From the NCBI GenBank assembly GCA_016125375.1, contig WGLU01000002.1, forward strand, positions 62,001 to 126,000: 64,000 nucleotides of DNA, read 5' to 3'. This DNA is from Pseudomonadota bacterium. Lineage in GTDB: Bacteria; Pseudomonadota; Alphaproteobacteria; UBA1280; RI-95. Both the position numbers and the translations under genes were made by a program. Under the pieces are notes generated by a model. It ran no database searches. It saw nothing but the letters and a program-made list of their open reading frames with translations, and was not told where the DNA came from. Shown here in pieces: positions 41,808-60,909 of this stretch (position 1 is the first letter of the stretch; each line of letters starts with the position of its first letter).

Positions 41808-42710
41808 ATGACACCGACTTTGCTGACCAAATCTCTGGACGAAGCGCTGGCCGCCGTCCTGCCCCATGATGGCGATGTAAATGCCGCCAAGGAAACAACC
41901 GCGCTCAAAGCCGATGCCGCCGACCTGTACGCGGCCCTGAGCAACAAGCGCTTCACCTTTGCAAGCGAGCCTTTTTTGGGCGTGCGCAAATACTCCGAAG
42001 GTGACCCCTCTGTGCTGCCCTACGAGCACCTGCTCCGCCCGCTCAGCATGCATGGCACACCGATTGAAATGAGCCGCGGCCTGAAGGCACTGCGCCGTCT
42101 GGGCCTGCAGAAGGACGTTGACCTGCTGCTGGTACCGCAAGCCATTTCCCAGGCACGCCGCTACGGCACCCTGCCCATGTCCGTGAATATCGCTTACGAA
42201 TCCCTGACCAGCCAGACCTTCCGCCAGACCATGGGTGACTATCTGGCCGGCCTGCGCCACGAGATGGATGCCGGCGATGTTGTGTTCGAGATTGCGGTGC
42301 CCGCCTCCCCGACCGAGGAAGCCCTCATCTGGATGCAGGAAGTCCGCCGCATGGGTTTCCGTATCGCACTAGATAACTTCAGCGAGACCAACAAATACAA
42401 CAGCTACGGCGCCGTGCAGATGGTCCAGCCCGAGTTTGTAAAACTCGACGGTGACATCGTTCAACGTGCGCTGGCCAACATGGTTGATCTGGGCCCTATC
42501 GTCCGCGCCATCCGCGGCCTGTCCCCTCGTACACGGGTTATTGCCCCGTGGGTGAGCACCGTGCACGAAGCCAAATGGCTGCACGACGAGTTCGGCATCG
42601 ACGCCGTTCAAGGCCGTAGCCTGACCAAGGACCGTTTGTTGTTCGACTCCGAAGTGAGCACCCTTTACCGCAACGAGCGTAACCACCGCATTACCGGATT
42701 TAACGATTAA
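41808..42710 (+). CDS. degenerate EAL-domain protein (c-di-GMP effector candidate)
   Basis: 300 residues. The EAL fold is visible from about residue 50: E73 (YEHLLRP), N127 (SVNIAYESL), E161 (FEIAVPA), LDNFSE (189-193) and K212 (FVKLDGD), ending QGRSLTK. Two metal-binding sites of active phosphodiesterases are lost: the DD pair reads D189-N190, and the AEGVE motif reads APWVS. It therefore probably binds c-di-GMP, or another partner, without cutting it. The first 48 residues are an unrecognised helical region. It is followed by its own terminator. Confidence 0.85.
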   Translation: MTPTLLTKSLDEALAAVLPHDGDVNAAKETTALKADAADLYAALSNKRFTFASEPFLGVRKYSEGDPSVLPYEHLLRPLSMHGTPIEMSRGLKALRRLGLQKDVDLLLVPQAISQARRYGTLPMSVNIAYESLTSQTFRQTMGDYLAGLRHEMDAGDVVFEIAVPASPTEEALIWMQEVRRMGFRIALDNFSETNKYNSYGAVQMVQPEFVKLDGDIVQRALANMVDLGPIVRAIRGLSPRTRVIAPWVSTVHEAKWLHDEFGIDAVQGRSLTKDRLLFDSEVSTLYRNERNHRITGFND

Positions 42711-52417: not shown

Positions 52418-53467
52418 TCATTCCTGCTCCTGGATTTCCTTTTCTTCCATTTCGGTGTAGGCAACCTCAATCTTCACCACACGGTTACGGGCAGAGGCAA
52501 CACCGTCGGCTGTTTTGAGGGGCAGGTTCTTCTCACCCACGCCGGTTGCCTCAATCAGTTCCTTGGGGAAACCTTCCTGCAACAGTGCCCTCTCAACTGC
52601 CAGCGCACGGCGCATGGACAGATCCATATTGTAGGCGGCAGGGCCGGCACGGTCGGCATAGCCAACAACCGTAATGCGCGTGGTGCTGCCATTGCGCACA
52701 GCATCTACCAGTTTCTGCACAACTTCCATGCCGTCAGAACCGATCTTGTCACTGTCAAACGCGAAGTAGATTGCGTCTAGCACTTGGCGAGGCACTTCGG
52801 CCTTGATGGTGCGGATTATCGTCTGCTCATCCGCAACGGGAGGAGCTACCTCCTCGGTGGGCTGTCCTGCGGTGGCCTCATCCGCAACAATCGTCTGAAG
52901 TGTGACATCTTCTTCCACCAGAGGCTTGGTATTCATGCGGCCTTCAATCATCTCGACGAGGGATGTCAGCTCCTGCATATCGCAGTACTCCGGACGGCCA
53001 GTAAACCAGCGACGTTCGCCACGCTCGACATTACAGTCGAACAGGACCTGGGCATGGGCGGAAAGGTAGGGATAACGGGTCTTGCTACCTGCAGCAAACA
53101 ACTCACCCAGACGGCGGTGCATGCCGTTCAGCATCTGACGGTCTTCGTCATTCCGGATGTGCCACTTGGCAGGGTCTTCCATATCCACAGCGCTCCCATC
53201 AGCTGCTGCACGACCCTTGTCGGCAAAGTGGCTGACATCGCTATAGTCAAAGACAGACAGGGGCACACCCAGTTGATACTCTTTAAAAGTCACGTAACGG
53301 GAATACTCGGATGCCAGATAGCGGTTAAAGTCGTCATACATGCTGTAGGCAGCCGTATTGCCCACGTCGTTTGCTAGACGGTAATTATTGAAGGAGGTTG
53401 TACACGCGCCGAGAGCCAGAGCGGCAACAGCACTCAGCAGGCTGCCGGTCACGGATTTGAGAGTCAT
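52418..53467 (-). CDS. OmpA-family outer-membrane lipoprotein
   Basis: 349 residues. A lipobox (LALGAC, C22) anchors the protein. An unrecognised domain (about 30-180) with a few cysteines is followed by an OmpA domain (about 235-335): AIYFAFDSDKIGSDGMEVVQKLVDAV and GYADRAGPAAYNMDLSMRRALAVERAL, which bind peptidoglycan. The final residues are acidic (EMEEKEIQEQE). It is the last gene of the Lap-like operon and overlaps the HD-GYP gene by 4 bases. Confidence 0.88.
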   Translation of the reverse strand: MTLKSVTGSLLSAVAALALGACTTSFNNYRLANDVGNTAAYSMYDDFNRYLASEYSRYVTFKEYQLGVPLSVFDYSDVSHFADKGRAAADGSAVDMEDPAKWHIRNDEDRQMLNGMHRRLGELFAAGSKTRYPYLSAHAQVLFDCNVERGERRWFTGRPEYCDMQELTSLVEMIEGRMNTKPLVEEDVTLQTIVADEATAGQPTEEVAPPVADEQTIIRTIKAEVPRQVLDAIYFAFDSDKIGSDGMEVVQKLVDAVRNGSTTRITVVGYADRAGPAAYNMDLSMRRALAVERALLQEGFPKELIEATGVGEKNLPLKTADGVASARNRVVKIEVAYTEMEEKEIQEQE

Positions 53468-55005
53468 CGAGTTTTCTCCAAACTTCTTTTGTAAACTTTT
53501 ATCAGCGCATCGACCACCAGCGGGCTGAATTTGTCGCGGCTGGTGTGCAGTCTATTCAAAACTTCCTCGGCTGGCAATGCGTTACGGTACATGCGCGGCC
53601 GGGTCATGGCACAAAAGACATCGCACACGCCTAGAATCTGCGCACGGATATCGATATCCCCTACGGTTAATTTGTTCGGATAACCACTGCCGTCAGCCCG
53701 TTCATGCATCTGGCGGATGACCTGCTTGATGGGCAGTTCAAAATCCACCTGTTCCAGAACCTGCATCGTGTGCTCCACATGCTGCTCCACCGTCTGCCGT
53801 TCTTCAGCCGTCAGGGTTCCCTTTTTGTTGACGATTTTCTTGGGGATGAATATCCGCCCGATGCCCGAGAGCTTGGCCGCATAAAACAATGTCGAGCGGT
53901 CGAACCGCTTCAGACCAAGTTCCTGCCCGACGTCCACTGCCAGTTTGGCAAAGCGCTCGTGGTGACCGGCCAGATACTCATCCCGCACCTCGATTGCCTT
54001 TATCAGCGCGTCGGTCATCTGCCCCAGATGGCGAACCCGCTGCTTGTCACGCCGGGACAGACCATACCAGAGCAACCCCATAAACGCAGCCGACGCAGCC
54101 ACTACCTGAATGGCCAGCAGCCACATGTACAGGGTTTCGTAGCGCCTAAAATCCCGCATGGCCCAGATGTACGGCGTTTCATGCACCACGACAAACGTGC
54201 TGTTTGGAATTGCCTGCGCCTTGCGGAACAGGCGGCTATCCCCCTCACCGGCCAGTTCCGCGCCCATAGGCTCATCACGCAGTGGGGCAATCTTGCCGTT
54301 GCCGACCCGGTACCAGGCCCCTGTATCGATAGCCCGGAATGAGAGGTAACTTGCCTCATTATTATTATCCGCGCCGGAGAAAGCATTCAGCACATCCGTC
54401 GCATCGGCTTGCAGGTACAGCGTACCCACGGCTGCGGGATGCTCGGCATCCAGATTATCAATCGGAACAAAAACCTCGATATAAGTCCGGCCGCTGGCAA
54501 CAATCGCGCCGCCCAGCATCGGCTGGCGGATTTGTAAAGCGCGGCTCAGGTACACCATACTCTGCGGATTGAAAGTGGCCACACTTGCGCTGGCAGCCAC
54601 GGAAACACGGGCATTGACCCCCAATAGCATTGCCGTGCGCAGGCCCGTGCGCTGCTGGAGTTCTTCCAGTGTACGGGACAGATAAGCCGTATGCGCCGCA
54701 TAGGTATCAGGCAGCTGACCGTCCGTGCTCTTGTTCGTTTCCATGACGTAGAGGCGAACAAGGTCAGCCTGCACGATAGGCTGGGCAGATTTGACCAGCT
54801 CCCCAACCCACGTATTGAAGACGTGTGCCTTGTCCTGGGCACGGGTTGCCGTCCGCTCGGCCATCAGCTCCTGCTGGGCCTCAAGGCGGTTTTTCATGTT
54901 CAGGGTAAACACGCCCCCTGCCCCTGCAACCAGCAAGGCGCAAAAGAGGGTGCTCAGTTTAAGGAACAGCGAATATGGTTTGCGGGTCTGGTAGAGGGTC
55001 ATCAT
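53464..55005 (-). CDS. membrane sensor with degenerate HD-GYP domain
   Basis: 513 residues. Helix 1 (about 13-34), a periplasmic Cache-like sensor region (35-290), helix 2 (291-315) and a cytoplasmic HD-GYP domain (325-510). H349, H409, MHERADGSGYP (433-443) and D462 are kept, but the HD pair that gives the family its name reads SG (380-381 in AAKLSGIGR). c-di-GMP hydrolysis is therefore unlikely, while binding is possible. It overlaps the LapG-type gene by ATGA and the OmpA-type gene by 4 bases, which places it in the secretion operon as a possible replacement for LapD. Confidence 0.85.
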   Translation of the reverse strand: MMTLYQTRKPYSLFLKLSTLFCALLVAGAGGVFTLNMKNRLEAQQELMAERTATRAQDKAHVFNTWVGELVKSAQPIVQADLVRLYVMETNKSTDGQLPDTYAAHTAYLSRTLEELQQRTGLRTAMLLGVNARVSVAASASVATFNPQSMVYLSRALQIRQPMLGGAIVASGRTYIEVFVPIDNLDAEHPAAVGTLYLQADATDVLNAFSGADNNNEASYLSFRAIDTGAWYRVGNGKIAPLRDEPMGAELAGEGDSRLFRKAQAIPNSTFVVVHETPYIWAMRDFRRYETLYMWLLAIQVVAASAAFMGLLWYGLSRRDKQRVRHLGQMTDALIKAIEVRDEYLAGHHERFAKLAVDVGQELGLKRFDRSTLFYAAKLSGIGRIFIPKKIVNKKGTLTAEERQTVEQHVEHTMQVLEQVDFELPIKQVIRQMHERADGSGYPNKLTVGDIDIRAQILGVCDVFCAMTRPRMYRNALPAEEVLNRLHTSRDKFSPLVVDALIKVYKRSLEKTR

Positions 55006-55724
55006 GGCTTGTCATTACCTTGTTGGGGCAAGAGGGTACTTTGTTTTTTTACAGGCACGTGCATCCAGCGCGTGGTGGTGTTGACCGAATAATACGGGTC
55101 ATACTGCAAGAAACCCGTATCCGGCAGAACATCTGTTATCAGGCTGTCCAGCACGTATATCTGCTCGCCGGAGCCTTGCGGATATACGGCCAGCACGGCA
55201 TGTCCTGTCTGCCGGATTGTGTCGCGCACAACAACAAGACGCAGCCGGTCATCTGTATAGCCGAGGGCACGTAGCGATACATATTTGAGGATGGCATAGT
55301 CCTCGCAATCACCATCATGCTCGATAAACTCCAGCGGCGAGGCCCAATAGTCGGTCTTATGCCACACCTGCTCATCGCTACGGTAAGGCCAGCGGTTGGC
55401 GAAAGCATTCACTTCGCGGAGCATATCCAGCCCGCTTTTTTTAGTATCCCGCATTTTTTGCAGGAAGGCGCGCCAGCTGCGCAGCTGCGGGGTTGCGCAG
55501 GTGATGGAACTTTTATCACAAGCGTCATAAACTGCCTGCTCGGACTGTATCCGCGCCAGCACCGCCCGCCAGTTGGGAAAAGCTTCCAGCCCGCTGCCCT
55601 GAACTTCGTAGGACGAGAAAATACCCACGGGCAGGCGCTCGTGTTTGTCATCTGTTTGCACAAAGGCGGAGGCGTTCCCTGCCATCAGGGCCACGACACT
55701 CACGACTGCAAACCAGATACGCAT
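55002..55724 (-). CDS. lapG: LapG-type periplasmic cysteine protease (BTLCP family)
   Basis: 240 residues with a signal peptide (cut after NASA). The triad C140 (HDGDCEDYAILKY), H175 (TGHAVLAV) and D193 (VLDSL) matches known LapG enzymes (about C135, H172, D189), and NRWPYRSDEQVWHKTDYWASPLEF is the family block. LapG is a calcium-dependent protease that clips the N-terminus of giant type I-secreted adhesins to release biofilm. The neighbouring exporter and sensor genes fit that role. The adhesin itself is not in the window. Confidence 0.92.
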   Translation of the reverse strand: MRIWFAVVSVVALMAGNASAFVQTDDKHERLPVGIFSSYEVQGSGLEAFPNWRAVLARIQSEQAVYDACDKSSITCATPQLRSWRAFLQKMRDTKKSGLDMLREVNAFANRWPYRSDEQVWHKTDYWASPLEFIEHDGDCEDYAILKYVSLRALGYTDDRLRLVVVRDTIRQTGHAVLAVYPQGSGEQIYVLDSLITDVLPDTGFLQYDPYYSVNTTTRWMHVPVKKQSTLLPQQGNDKP

Positions 55725-55729
55725 ATGGT

Positions 55730-57250
55730 CTAGCGCTCCCGCATGGCGTTATCACGCACCTTATAGAAAGGCTTGAGCAGATAATCCATGATGGTTTTAC
55801 GGCCGGTCAGAATATCAACGTTGGCAATCATGCCCGGGATAATCGGCAACAGCCTGCCGTTGGGGGCTTTCATCTCGCCGCTTTCCGTGCGCACACGGAT
55901 AACATAGAAAGCCTCGCCTTTCTGGTCGGCGACAGTATCGGCGCCGATGGACTCCACATACCCTTTCAGGCCACCGTAGATAGAGAAGTCATAGGCGGTG
56001 AGCTTGACCATAGCCCCCTGCCCCGGACTGATGAAGGCAATATCCTGCGGACGGATGCGGGCTTCTATCAGCAGTTTGTCCTCGTAAGGAATCAACTCGA
56101 CGATATCCTCGCCCGGTTTCACAACACCGCCGATTGTGTTCACGAGCAGCTGCTTGACCGTACCCTTGACTGGTGCGCGGACCACGGTGCGGTTGACCTT
56201 GTCCTCGACAGCGCGCATGACCTCGGTCAGGCGGAAGAGCTCGTCGCGCTTCTCTGCCAGCTCTTTCAGGCGTTCATTCTTCCATTGGGAATCGAACTCC
56301 TGCTCGCGCTCAATGCTTTCGTTCAGTGCCGATTCCGCAGCTGGTACAGCCAGCTTGGCGCTATCGTAACGGCCCTGTGCATCGTTCACTTCCTTACGGG
56401 TTTCAATCAGCGCCATTTTAGCAATAACGCCCTTTCTCTCCATTTCTTCCGACAGACGGAGCTGCTCGGCGGACAGGTCATAGGAGCGCTTGGTCTGGTC
56501 ACGGTTCTTCTGGGCGTCCAGCAGTTCCTGCTTTTTCTGCTCGATCTGGCGTTTCATGACGGACTTGGTGCTTTTTCGCTCTTCTTCCTGCGACGTATAA
56601 AGCGCTTCTTCCTGCGCGACAATGTTCGGCGCATCGACGCGCAAATCTGCCGGGAACTGCGGTTCAATACCCGTTGATTGCGCATCCAGACGGGCAACAG
56701 CCGCCTTGAGGTACAGCACGCGGTTGCGCTTTTCGGCATAGGACGAGGCAAAACCCGTATCATCAATCCGCACGAGCGGCTGGTCCTTCTCGACCAGATC
56801 CCCTTCGCGGACCAGAATCTCGGCCACTGTACCGCCATCAAAGTTCTGGATAACCTGAACCTTGCTGGACGGAATCACTTTGCCCATGCCGTGGGTGACT
56901 TCGTCGATCTCTGTAATGCCTGCCCATGCCAACAGCAGCAGCAGGAAGGACAGCGTGGTCCAGAACAGGATATTGGAAACCGGCGCCGCGCCGCGTAGTG
57001 TGGCCTGACGTACATCATCCATGAAGGCACCATCCTCCCAGCTTGTGGGGAAGAGTTTCTGGTGCAACACACGCTGGCCTTGGTACCAGTGCGCTTGCGC
57101 CTGATCCCGATAGGCCTGCGCTTTTTTAACCAGCGGCTTTTCACGCTGTTTTTCCATGAACTGTTTGTACTGTCCTGCCAGCTTGCCCTTAGGCTCCTGC
57201 ACGGGCTGGTCGCCGGGCACGGCTTTAAGTTTGTCGAGGTGCTTTTTCAT
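55730..57250 (-). CDS. HlyD-type type I secretion adaptor (LapC-like)
   Basis: 506 residues. A long cytoplasmic start (about 1-90), one helix (91-113), barrel-sandwich start (VIPSSKVQVIQNFDGGTVAEILVREGDLVEKDQPLVRID), a long coiled coil (about 195-345) and the second barrel half (TVVRAPVKGTVKQLLVNTIGGVVKPGEDIVELIPYED). It should link the ABC exporter to TolC. It overlaps the ABC gene by ATGA and the LapG-type gene follows 5 bases later. Confidence 0.93.
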   Translation of the reverse strand: MKKHLDKLKAVPGDQPVQEPKGKLAGQYKQFMEKQREKPLVKKAQAYRDQAQAHWYQGQRVLHQKLFPTSWEDGAFMDDVRQATLRGAAPVSNILFWTTLSFLLLLLAWAGITEIDEVTHGMGKVIPSSKVQVIQNFDGGTVAEILVREGDLVEKDQPLVRIDDTGFASSYAEKRNRVLYLKAAVARLDAQSTGIEPQFPADLRVDAPNIVAQEEALYTSQEEERKSTKSVMKRQIEQKKQELLDAQKNRDQTKRSYDLSAEQLRLSEEMERKGVIAKMALIETRKEVNDAQGRYDSAKLAVPAAESALNESIEREQEFDSQWKNERLKELAEKRDELFRLTEVMRAVEDKVNRTVVRAPVKGTVKQLLVNTIGGVVKPGEDIVELIPYEDKLLIEARIRPQDIAFISPGQGAMVKLTAYDFSIYGGLKGYVESIGADTVADQKGEAFYVIRVRTESGEMKAPNGRLLPIIPGMIANVDILTGRKTIMDYLLKPFYKVRDNAMRER

Positions 57251-59439
57251 TGGTTGCCCCCCGTATTGGCCTGAATCCCCTGATTGGCAAGCATGTGGAG
57301 AACTTTCTCCTTCGGCCCGTCAGCCACGATGTGGCCGTTATCAACCACAATGACCCGATCAACCAGATCAAGCAGGGCCGGACGGTGGGTAATGACAATC
57401 AACGTGCTGCTTTTAAACATGTGGCGCATGTTGTTCAGGACAGTTTGCTCGGTGCGGCTATCCAGTCCGTTCGTCGGTTCATCCATGATGACGACCTTGT
57501 GGTTTTTCAGGAACATGCGTGCCAGCGCCACACACTGTTTCTGACCGCCGGAAATACCGTCTCCGCCACGGCCTAGGGGCATGTCGTAACCCATGGGATG
57601 GCGGCCGGCAAAATCAGATACGCAGGACAGCTCGGCGGCGTTATTGAACTCCTCCGGCGATGCCTGAGGGTACGCCATCATAATGTTCTCGCGCAGGGTG
57701 GTATTGAACAGGCTTACAGTCTGCGGTACGTAGCCCATTTTGGAGCGGAACTCCGACGGGTCCTGCTGACGGATCTCGATATCATCCAGCAGGATGGAAC
57801 CGGACTGGGGGTTGTACAGGTTCAGAATCAGTTTGGCGATAGTGCTCTTGCCGCTGCCTGTTCGGCCAATAATGCCTACCTTCTCGCCCGGACGGATGCG
57901 CATATTCAGGTTATGCAGGCTGTTGTTCTGCGCACCCGGGTAGCTAAAGTACACATTGCGGAACGTGATGCCGCCGGCAAATGCAGGATTGTAGATAAAC
58001 TGCTTGCCCTCGGGACGCTCGGTTTCCATTGCCATGATGTCGCCCAGTGTTTTGAGGGACGTGTTGGCCTGTTCGTAACGGGCGTAAAGCGCGGCAGCCT
58101 GACTGACCGGTGCCATGGCACGTCCGGTCAAGAGCGTACATGCAACCAGACCACCTACGCTGAGGTCGCCTTCTTTAATCCGGTAAACGCCGATAATCAC
58201 GACAAGGACAGATACAATCTGCTGGATAAAAATACTGAAGTTCAAACCGAACGCCGCATAAAAGCGTGATGCCATGCTCACCCGTGCGACTGTACCGACG
58301 GACTGCTCCCAGATAGCTTGTGTCCGACTTTCCAGATTATGGGCTTTAATGGCCTCTATACCCGTCAGAGCCTCCACCAGGTGGCCATGCTTGGCGTCCA
58401 GCTCGTGCGTGACACGGGCGACGATGCTCTTGATGGGTCGCTGGATGGTCAGGCTCAGCATCAGGACAAGCGGCACGGCAATCAGCGGCACCAGTGCCAT
58501 CGCTCCGCCGAACAGCGCTACAAAACCGATAAAAATAAATACGAACGGCAGGTCGATAAGACTGACCAGCGTTGCCGAGGTGAAGAAGTCGCGCAGGGAC
58601 TCGAACTCGCGGAGCTGGTTGGCAAAAGACCCCGCACTGTTGGCCTGTTTGCCCAACCGGATATTCAGCACGTGCTGGAACAGCCGGCTGGCCAGCAGAA
58701 TATCCGCACCGCGCCCGGCCACATCGATAAAGTAGCCGCGCAGCTGGCGGAAAATGAAATCGAAAACGAAGCAGAGAATCACCGCCGATGCCAGCGCCCA
58801 CAAGGTTGCCGTTGCCGCATTGGGCACGACGCGGTCATAGACGTTCATGACAAAAATAGGGCTGACAATCGCCATCAGGTTGGTAAAGACAGAGGCCAGA
58901 ATCACCTGTCCGTAAAGCTTGCGAAACTGTTTGACCGTACTCCAGAACCACCCCTGCCCGGTCTGGAACATATCCGTTGCCAGCTCAGCCGCGGAGGCTG
59001 GACGCAAAAGAATGACGCTGCCCTCGTAAACCTGCTCCACAAAGGCATCCAGCGGCACCGACGCCACGGACTGATTGGTTGACGGGTCGTAATAGGTCAG
59101 GGATTTTTTCTCGTCCAGCGCGGTTACAACAACGGCGCCGCCGTTTTTTGTCAGGGCGACAAACGGAACCACGTGGGGGGACAGATGGTCGGGCGCGCGG
59201 TCAACAACCTTTGCATTCAGGCCAATACGTCGGGCTGCCCGTACAAACAGGCTGGGCGTGAGCCTGCCACTGCGCAAAGGCAGACCGGCAACCAATGACG
59301 GGCGCGAGAATTGCTTTTGATAATAGCCGGCCAGATAAACCAGACACTCCAGCAACACGTCAAAAATAACATGTGCCTTTGCCACTTCTGTCTGAGCAAC
59401 CTTTTTGGGCGCTCTTTTGCGCTCTTGTTGTTGGGTCAT
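57247..59439 (-). CDS. type I secretion ABC transporter with C39-like domain (LapB-like)
   Basis: 730 residues. An N-terminal C39-like domain (about 25-150) without the catalytic cysteine, a membrane domain (about 165-440) and an ATPase with GRTGSGKST, ISGGQKQCVALARMF and KVVIMDEPTNGLD. Such LapB/RtxB-type exporters recognise large unprocessed adhesins or RTX proteins. It is the first gene of the operon and diverges from tolC. Confidence 0.93.
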   Translation of the reverse strand: MTQQQERKRAPKKVAQTEVAKAHVIFDVLLECLVYLAGYYQKQFSRPSLVAGLPLRSGRLTPSLFVRAARRIGLNAKVVDRAPDHLSPHVVPFVALTKNGGAVVVTALDEKKSLTYYDPSTNQSVASVPLDAFVEQVYEGSVILLRPASAAELATDMFQTGQGWFWSTVKQFRKLYGQVILASVFTNLMAIVSPIFVMNVYDRVVPNAATATLWALASAVILCFVFDFIFRQLRGYFIDVAGRGADILLASRLFQHVLNIRLGKQANSAGSFANQLREFESLRDFFTSATLVSLIDLPFVFIFIGFVALFGGAMALVPLIAVPLVLMLSLTIQRPIKSIVARVTHELDAKHGHLVEALTGIEAIKAHNLESRTQAIWEQSVGTVARVSMASRFYAAFGLNFSIFIQQIVSVLVVIIGVYRIKEGDLSVGGLVACTLLTGRAMAPVSQAAALYARYEQANTSLKTLGDIMAMETERPEGKQFIYNPAFAGGITFRNVYFSYPGAQNNSLHNLNMRIRPGEKVGIIGRTGSGKSTIAKLILNLYNPQSGSILLDDIEIRQQDPSEFRSKMGYVPQTVSLFNTTLRENIMMAYPQASPEEFNNAAELSCVSDFAGRHPMGYDMPLGRGGDGISGGQKQCVALARMFLKNHKVVIMDEPTNGLDSRTEQTVLNNMRHMFKSSTLIVITHRPALLDLVDRVIVVDNGHIVADGPKEKVLHMLANQGIQANTGGNQ

Positions 59440-59547
59440 TTGTTCCCCGTCCCGTCTTGCGGCACATAGCCGCGCACTGCACTTACATGAGGTAAGTATA
59501 AATTATTATTCCACTTTTGACATGGCCTTAAAAATCCATATAGTGGT

Positions 59548-59577
59548 TTCACTCGGCTTATACGGGTTAACTATAAT
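59548..59577 (+). promoter_or_regulatory. tolC promoter
   Basis: TTCACT (59548-59553), 18-base spacer and TATAAT (59572-59577); a GGGGGTT ribosome site precedes the GTG at 59599. Confidence 0.55.
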
Positions 59578-59598
59578 TAATGACTTACGGGGGTTCCT

Positions 59599-60909
59599 GT
59601 GAAACATTCTCTCCGCGTAACTCTGGCAAGCCTTCTGGCTGGTACCGCTCTGATGGGCACCTCCACCGCCTCTGCCATGACACTGGAAGACGCTGTCCGC
59701 AAAACCCTTATTGAAAACCCCCAGATTATCTCCGCTCGCCAAAGTGCCGATCAGGTGGATGCCGAGGTTGACGAAGCATGGGGCGGTTACTTGCCACAGG
59801 TCGACCTGACTGCCGCTACAGGTCACGAGCGCAGCAATAACCCGTCTACCCGCGCCCGCGGTGCCAACGACCCCAACACATCCATGTGGCGTAACGAAGG
59901 CCGTCTGGTTGTATCGCAAATGCTGTATGACGGTGGCCGCGTGTCCTCGCTGGTCGGTCAACAACGCGCCCGTTTGGGAGCCGCCAATGCCACGCTGGAT
60001 GAAACCCGCGAGAATACCGCCCTGCGTGCCATCCTTGCCTATTTTGACGTTGTGCGCCTGAACAAACTGGTCGGCCTGGCAACAGAGAACCGTACCAACC
60101 ACCAAGTCTATCTGGACAAAATTACCGAACAGGCCCGCGGCGGTCAGGTCAGCAAGGCCGACATTCGTCAGGCTGCCGGCCGTCTGGCACTGGCTGAGAG
60201 CACGCTGATTGACTTCCAGCGCCAGCGCGACGATGCCAATGCGACCTTTGTATCGCTGGTTGGTGAAGCACCGACCGATCTGGCACAACCGACCTTCCTG
60301 GAAGAAGGCGAACTGCCGACATCGCTGGATGATGCACAGGAAAGCGCCATGGAAAACAATCCTGCCGTTATTGCCGAACGCAATAATGTCAAAGCTGCCG
60401 GTGAAGCCGTACGGGAGAGCAAATCCTCTTTCCTGCCGCGCCTGAACGCCGAGCTTTCCGCTGGCCGCGCCCACAATCTGGACGGCTCCCGCGGGGACAA
60501 CAACGAAGGCGTTGCCCTGATGCGCATGAGCTATAACCTTTACGCCGGTGGGTCGGACATGGCCCGTAAACGTGCCCGCATCATGCGTGAGGGCGCTGCG
60601 AATGCCGACCTGACCCAGCGTCAACGTCAGGTAAAAGAACGCACACGCCAGTCGTGGAACGACTACACCAACACCCGTGCGCGCCTGACGCCGCTGTCCG
60701 AACATGTAACTGCGGCAACCCAGACACGCGATGCCTACAAGGATCAGTTCGATCTGGGCAAACGTACCCTGCTTGACCTGTTGGATTCGGAAATCGAGCT
60801 GTTCAACTCCAGAGTTGCCCTGACTAACGCCGAATATGAATATGCCTTCTCCAAATACGAGCTGGCTTCTCTGATGGGTGAATTGGTTGAGAAATTCGCG
60901 CAGAAGTAA
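59599..60909 (+). CDS. tolC: TolC-family outer-membrane channel (LapE-like)
   Basis: 436 residues from GTG 59599. A signal peptide (cut after TASA) is followed by the TolC repeat pattern: MTLEDAVRKTLIENPQIISARQSADQVDAEVDEAWGGYLPQV and, in the second half, AVIAERNNVKAAGEAVRESKSSFLPRLN, with long helices and DQFDLGKRTLLDLLDSEIELF near the end. It gives the exit channel for the divergent ABC/HlyD pair. Its own strong terminator follows. Confidence 0.92.
   Translation: MKHSLRVTLASLLAGTALMGTSTASAMTLEDAVRKTLIENPQIISARQSADQVDAEVDEAWGGYLPQVDLTAATGHERSNNPSTRARGANDPNTSMWRNEGRLVVSQMLYDGGRVSSLVGQQRARLGAANATLDETRENTALRAILAYFDVVRLNKLVGLATENRTNHQVYLDKITEQARGGQVSKADIRQAAGRLALAESTLIDFQRQRDDANATFVSLVGEAPTDLAQPTFLEEGELPTSLDDAQESAMENNPAVIAERNNVKAAGEAVRESKSSFLPRLNAELSAGRAHNLDGSRGDNNEGVALMRMSYNLYAGGSDMARKRARIMREGAANADLTQRQRQVKERTRQSWNDYTNTRARLTPLSEHVTAATQTRDAYKDQFDLGKRTLLDLLDSEIELFNSRVALTNAEYEYAFSKYELASLMGELVEKFAQK

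Follow-up and report, generated by a model that had tools for sequence, protein, structure and literature searches.

How is a LapG-type protease kept under control when LapD, its receptor in the known LapD/LapG system, is not found in the genome? This question is raised by a locus in a 64,000-nt stretch of DNA (hereafter the window; contig WGLU01000002.1, positions 62,001 to 126,000) from a bacterium of the Pseudomonadota, where lapG overlaps by 4 nt the gene of a membrane receptor with a degenerate HD-GYP domain, next to genes of a type I secretion system (T1SS). The sequence-only reading of this locus had proposed that the receptor takes the place of LapD, and this is still the best reading, strengthened by homology to DvhD, a receptor that has been studied experimentally. 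Judged by its sequence, the window protein is a PAS-less homologue and variant of DvhD, not DvhD proper. We consider it quite probable that the locus is a Dvh-like adhesin-retention system, in which an adhesin would be kept or shed according to the level of cyclic dimeric guanosine monophosphate (c-di-GMP), with a dead enzyme as the sensor.

That LapD is missing, as first claimed, was upheld by a search of the whole genome of the bacterium (hereafter the own genome; 1.98 Mb in nine contigs, 97.7% complete), where the LapD_MoxY_N model (PF16448) gave no match; none of 14 control genomes matched either, so that the search has no named positive control. C-di-GMP enzymes are encoded in the own genome, with 11 GGDEF and 8 EAL matches over cut-off, and an EAL-domain match (79.9 bits) lies elsewhere in the window, at 41922-42623 on the plus strand. 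The LapG of the locus carries the full triad C140-H175-D193, at exactly the positions first read, with D139 and E141 on either side of the cysteine (GDCED), as in the LapG/DvhG family (Peptidase C93), and its N-terminus reads as signal-like. Its matches in the PDB were 4u65 (E 4e-22) and 4fgo (E 1e-21), which we take to be LapG structures, and the NCBIfam LapG model matched with 104 bits, under its equivalog cut-off of 320.

Hydropathy places two transmembrane (TM) helices in the receptor, TM1 at about 17-35 and TM2 at about 294-312, with about 258 periplasmic residues between them. A periplasmic dCache-type domain spans about 36-293, and the HD-GYP domain (323-505) follows soon after TM2; the label "Cache-like" of the sequence-only reading draws its support from homology to the dCache domain of DvhD; Pfam models run on just the window protein did not bear it out. 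The HD dyad is replaced by S380-G381, while the GYP motif is intact (GSGYP, 439-443), both as originally read, and the first histidine of the HH pair is changed to M433. Seven positions (H527, H559, D560, H588, H612, H613, and D641 in DvhD numbering), which presumably are all metal ligands, are invariant in the 18 HD-keeping rows of the HD-GYP alignment, and the window receptor keeps four of them (H348, H409, H434, and D462). Loss of catalysis is therefore likely from these residues, short of proof.

The closest relatives of known structure are DvhD chains. More specifically, the HD-GYP domain matched DvhD entries 9rbz (E 3.5e-42) and 9rc0 (E 1e-41), followed by V-cGAP3 (4.9e-19) and PmGH (2.7e-13). 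For the periplasmic domain, a profile was made from 16 receptors of the same clade (type 1, below); it found the DvhD dCache chain 9rc2 at E 1e-49, with the next best hit at 4.3e-4. When the window protein and 2000 shuffles were searched with a profile of the other 15 receptors, the former was recovered at E 6.9e-28 and the latter gave no match. DvhD of Desulfovibrio vulgaris is a dCache-PAS-HD-GYP protein with SQ for HD, the c-di-GMP receptor for the LapG-like DvhG; it binds c-di-GMP without hydrolysing it, and inside-out control of DvhG has been proposed (PMC13090378). Among the eight canonical c-di-GMP contacts of DvhD named there (PMC13090378), six are identical in the window receptor (Y523, L577, Y621, M646, R650, and Y652) and two are changed (K582 to R, E668 to S). 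At the bridging site, one contact is identical (P567) and the other two are conservatively replaced (K520 to R, R569 to K). The equivalent of R650 is an arginine in all 94 rows of the alignment besides DvhD.

The likeness to DvhD/DvhG (also BfsD/BfsG) extends beyond the receptor: in both systems a dCache domain and an HD-less HD-GYP domain, each homologous to its counterpart in the other system, are combined in one protein, whose gene adjoins those of a LapG-like protease and of a T1SS in the order protease to receptor (PMC13090378). The window receptor has its closest HD-GYP relative and a homologous dCache domain in DvhD, has lost the HD dyad, and adjoins lapG and T1SS genes. It differs from DvhD in having no PAS domain between TM2 and the HD-GYP domain, SG instead of SQ, and MH instead of MN at the HH pair, and for want of the PAS domain we filed it as a variant rather than as DvhD proper. 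In addition, DvhG has a TM anchor and a long linker, in contrast to the 240-residue window LapG with its signal-like start, and the window operon has an additional OmpA gene, lacks an adjoining adhesin gene, and belongs to another bacterial class (PMC13090378). With LapD/LapG of Pseudomonas fluorescens, as outlined in that source, the locus shares a LapG-family protease with an intact triad, a T1SS, and the expected logic of c-di-GMP-controlled adhesin retention, whereas its receptor has neither the LapD_MoxY_N nor the GGDEF or EAL domain of LapD (PMC13090378). Active HD-GYP proteins (PmGH, 4mcw; V-cGAP3, 5z7c) have the HD-GYP domain and the GYP motif in common with the window receptor, which lacks their HD dyad and first histidine of the HH pair and matches them far more weakly than it does DvhD.

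Table 1. Genes of the locus in window coordinates, with the basis of each assignment
Feature	Coordinates	Strand	Basis
T1SS permease/ATPase, LssB/LapB type, C39-like N-terminal domain, 730 aa	57247..59439	-	TIGR03375 867 bits; Peptidase_C39 26.6 bits
HlyD-type periplasmic adaptor, 506 aa	55730..57250	-	TIGR01843 387 bits
LapG/DvhG-type cysteine protease, 240 aa	55002..55724	-	Peptidase_C93 57.6 bits; PDB 4u65, 4fgo; triad
DvhD-like receptor, 513 aa, SG for HD	53464..55005	-	HD_5 at 334-493; hydropathy; homology to DvhD
OmpA-domain lipoprotein, 349 aa, lipobox-like start by reading	52418..53467	-	OmpA 64 bits
TolC-family outer-membrane channel, GTG start	59599..60909	+	TIGR01844 298 bits

The gene content given in the sequence-only reading, including the divergent tolC, agrees with the open reading frames, coordinates, and families that we found (Table 1). 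The ATP-binding cassette (ABC) exporter and HlyD genes, and the receptor and OmpA genes, overlap by 4 nt, like lapG and the receptor gene, and 5 nt separate HlyD from LapG; from these junctions, the five minus-strand genes very likely form a single translationally coupled operon. The spacing between tolC and the ABC gene is 159 nt. We rejected the OmpA gene as a conserved part of the system given its near-total lack of matches in the 91 other receptor loci described below (blastp, E <= 1e-3), where its N-terminal half had no match and its OmpA half one weak match (E 4e-4). Elsewhere in the own genome, two adjoining ABC exporter genes (C3:115742-119064) possibly belong to a second export system.

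Is this arrangement peculiar to one genome? A scan with a two-sequence LapG alignment gave 2 loci and was too narrow, and a wider sample of 385 genomes from the class of the host, taken to be Alphaproteobacteria, was used instead. The class is deduced from another of its members, G362, a stretch of which matched 19 plasmid records at 60-90% identity, all from the alphaproteobacterial genera Microvirga, Shinella, Sinorhizobium, Methylobacterium, Methylorubrum, Jiella, and Rhizobium. Among plasmids, the window receptor itself matched 328 records, every one at less than 60% identity and none across more than 80% of its length; a type-2 receptor (see below) had no plasmid match, and a T1SS stretch of genome G046 gave scattered pieces at 60-80%. 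A seven-row receptor profile (E <= 1e-45) matched 76 of these genomes at 92 sites after merging of split matches. We viewed 90 receptor sites with up to 5 kb per side and added the two of the own genome, giving 92 loci. A purpose-built LapG profile found lapG in 56 of the 92 (55 complete, one in two fragments), and not one of these 56 lapG-linked receptors keeps HD; among the 36 loci without lapG, 16 keep it and 20 do not. A search for such HD-less HD-GYP neighbours of lapG had been suggested by the sequence-only reading. The 56 loci represent 49 of the 385 genomes (48 with a complete lapG) and 29 family labels, and LapD_MoxY_N matches 10 of the 385, 9 of them over cut-off. Peptidase_C93 matched in 113 genomes (E <= 1e-6); among the 150 matches listed, none of the 36 over 100 bits lies within 4 kb of such a receptor, and 54 of the other 114 do. 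Three type-1 HD-less receptors from genomes of the same order (L105, L116, and L039) had no lapG in the stretches read.

To place these receptors, we removed the dyad columns from an alignment of 95 HD-GYP domains (those of the 92 loci and three from the PDB) and built a tree. All HD-less receptors form one clade, with a support of 99 in the Shimodaira-Hasegawa-like approximate likelihood ratio test (SH-aLRT), in which two groups are seen. The type 1 clade (SH-aLRT 87) holds DvhD and 20 loci, that of the window included; its dyads are SQ, SG, AQ, AG, AS, and AA, with GYP in 18 of 20 and GHP in the other two. In the type 2 clade (56 loci, support 99), the dyad is MN in 45, LN in 8, and otherwise replaced in three; the tyrosine of GYP survives in 4 of the 56 and most metal-ligand positions are altered, while the R650 equivalent is present in all 56 (e.g. 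L121-L193). The two clades also differ in their surroundings. In type 1, lapG is found at 16 of 20 loci, in 13 of which, including the window, the order ABC-HlyD-LapG-receptor is kept on one strand (with about 1.8 kb between lapG and hlyD in one of the 13, and the ABC gene cut by the end of the stretch in several), and all 15 lapG-receptor pairs with coordinates are on the same strand. In type 2, lapG is nearby in 40 of 56 loci, and the 39 pairs with coordinates are divergent (35), convergent (3), or on the same strand (1). The distance from TM2 to the GH motif is 36 residues in the window receptor, without a PAS domain; it is 31-44 residues in six of the 20 type-1 receptors, this one included, and 169-175 in 13 PAS-type members, and one receptor with a single predicted TM helix has 242 residues to the motif. 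The six PAS-less receptors form one clade (SH-aLRT 87), the inner order of which is not settled.

The own genome contains two Peptidase_C93 matches, the second of which (C9:505147-505536) belongs to another pair, LapG with a PAS/HD-GYP receptor that has AG for HD (C9:502982-505884, minus strand). Within the 20 kb examined, nothing near this pair matched the ABC, HlyD, or TolC protein of the window. In this second LapG, the catalytic cysteine is replaced by aspartate (codon GAC). A serine stands in the same place in the LapGs of four species of one genus, from another family, three of which keep the flanking Asp and Glu and the fourth of which has Gly and Arg. The five Cys-less LapGs group with moderate support (85/79; 90% of 200 bootstrap trees), and, from their sequences, those paired with HD-less receptors probably constitute one clade. 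A LapG with the full triad is also present in all five genomes. The genus in question (L106, L107, L108, and L109 with L145, L154, L124, and L143) has a T1SS operon with the Cys-to-Ser LapG and an SQ receptor, and, about 6-9 kb from it, an intact LapG with an MN receptor. Since a Cys-to-Ala variant of DvhG is reported as inactive (PMC13090378), the Cys-less LapGs are probably non-cutting. Tentatively, and with less than even confidence, we suggest that the usual LapG partner in Alphaproteobacteria may be an HD-GYP pseudo-enzyme of two old clades, not LapD, and that the Cys-less LapGs, each kept with an HD-less receptor of its own in a genome that also holds an intact LapG, might shield adhesin retention domains or compete for them without cutting, gated by c-di-GMP. 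If true, this would be a switch built from a dead protease and a dead phosphodiesterase.

How would the locus of the window work? By analogy with DvhD, we infer that its receptor binds c-di-GMP without hydrolysing it, restrains LapG, and signals from the inside out. TolC, the ABC exporter, and HlyD would export a large adhesin, whose N-terminal retention domain would anchor it in the TolC channel. At high c-di-GMP, the ligand would bind the catalytically dead HD-GYP domain and its helical stalks would splay; because the PAS domain is absent, the stalks join TM2 almost directly, and TM2 would then relay the change to the dCache domain, which would restrain LapG. A fall in c-di-GMP would free LapG, whose cut at a [T/A/P]AAG site would remove the retention domain, and the cell would shed the adhesin.

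Several points weigh against this reading. Since one clade accounts for all loss of HD, the 56 lapG-linked loci do not count as independent, and for this reason a Fisher test (p 7e-8) was set aside as evidence. The survey profile was itself made from HD-less proteins, and 20 of 76 HD-less receptors had no lapG in the stretch viewed; only 3 of these 20 had a flank under 1.5 kb, so HD-less receptors also occur without a neighbouring lapG. In the window receptor, the four metal-ligand positions named above are still present, and E668, the guanine-specificity residue of DvhD, corresponds to S489. From two sequences, AlphaFold gave a receptor model of low quality (mean predicted local distance difference test score, pLDDT, 48), and therefore no interface was judged; Foldseek ranked DvhD chains first with this model, a result that we do not use given its low confidence. 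Lastly, the own genome, at the completeness and contig number given above, yielded no adhesin of the retention type.

More specifically, the three matches of NF033682 in the own genome, all below cut-off, are two FecR proteins and one RelA/SpoT protein, and the best match of TIGR03661 had an E value of 0.1. No adhesin was seen among the long and edge-touching frames at both ends of all nine contigs, where a crude cadherin motif scan returned a single match, an unrelated 195-aa frame that was discarded. A 1697-aa protein with RTX repeats (PF00353; C9:136769-141862) was rejected as the adhesin, its repeats beginning near the start with no retention domain seen; it is a candidate T1SS substrate. 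In UBA2136 (DCXM01000008.1), which is listed in the same class and is an unclassified member of the Pseudomonadota at NCBI, the same operon has tolC next to it and also the N-terminal part of an adhesin, where the contig breaks off. This N-terminus contains EPAAG and, after it, a cadherin-like repeat (Cadherin_4; its 23.4 bits narrowly miss the cut-off of 25.1), and had no NCBIfam match; used as a query, it had no match in the own genome, in a search without a positive control. Its PAAG agrees with the [T/A/P]AAG rule for LapG-type cleavage sites, as given in PMC13090378. A 935-aa FecR protein beside a CHASE2-cyclase and a TPR protein (L028:6691-13019) matched the LapA retention model weakly.

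Other explanations of the receptor have to be considered together with these points. The retained GYP motif, the six of eight canonical contacts, and the arginine at R650 in every row argue against an outside-in sensor, whose dCache domain would bind an environmental ligand and set LapG activity, with the HD-GYP domain as a structural remnant or minor input. Ligand binding is indeed common among dCache domains, the window receptor has lost the PAS domain and has other residues in place of E668 and K582, and the type 2 clade remains near LapG although its GYP motif and several contacts decay. However, the PAS/HD-GYP fragment of DvhD binds c-di-GMP with an effective dissociation constant of 99 nM, and unmodelled density is absent from the ligand site of its dCache domain (PMC13090378), and we regard an outside-in sensor as unlikely. 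It is highly improbable that the receptor has remained a phosphodiesterase, depleting c-di-GMP in the vicinity of the secretion system. Four of the seven positions invariant in HD-keeping rows would fit such an activity, but both HD residues and the first histidine of the HH pair are lost, none of the 56 LapG-linked relatives keeps HD, and DvhD, with SQ, did not hydrolyse c-di-GMP with any ions added (PMC13090378).

Control of the window LapG might also come from elsewhere in the genome, from a 969-aa protein (C4:155803-158712) whose GGDEF and EAL domains are degenerate, a LapD-like protein though without LapD_MoxY_N. Set beside an intact comparison protein, it lacks the GGDEF motif and has changed EAL motifs (ESF, DRFG), and its N-terminal region is sensor-like; in LapD, too, both of these domains are degenerate. 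Against it, LapD_MoxY_N is unmatched in the genome, no lapG lies within the 13 kb examined around the C4 gene, and the only two lapG copies each directly adjoin an HD-less HD-GYP gene, which leaves such control with very little credence in our view. A degenerate HD-GYP receptor of the DvhD kind thus accounts best for the locus.

The principle of such a receptor is not new, since DvhD/DvhG of Desulfovibrio vulgaris already works so (PMC13090378). What appears to be new is how widespread and varied these receptors are in the class of the host, together with the Cys-less LapGs and the form without PAS. Searches of one open-licence library returned no account of the PAS-less form, of pairs outside Desulfovibrionales, of the larger type 2 clade, or of Cys-less LapGs; the class-distribution figure of PMC13090378 may already show Alphaproteobacteria. 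Our results suggest that the Desulfovibrio solution, a pseudo-phosphodiesterase in the place of LapD, is common in another class. If so, the receptors in charge of LapG-controlled adhesion there would be of the HD-GYP kind, which one could easily take for phosphodiesterases. With its c-di-GMP domain almost touching the TM helix, the PAS-less form would be a pared-down version, useful for tests of transmembrane signalling, and the Cys-less LapGs pose a testable question, that of non-proteolytic adhesin control.

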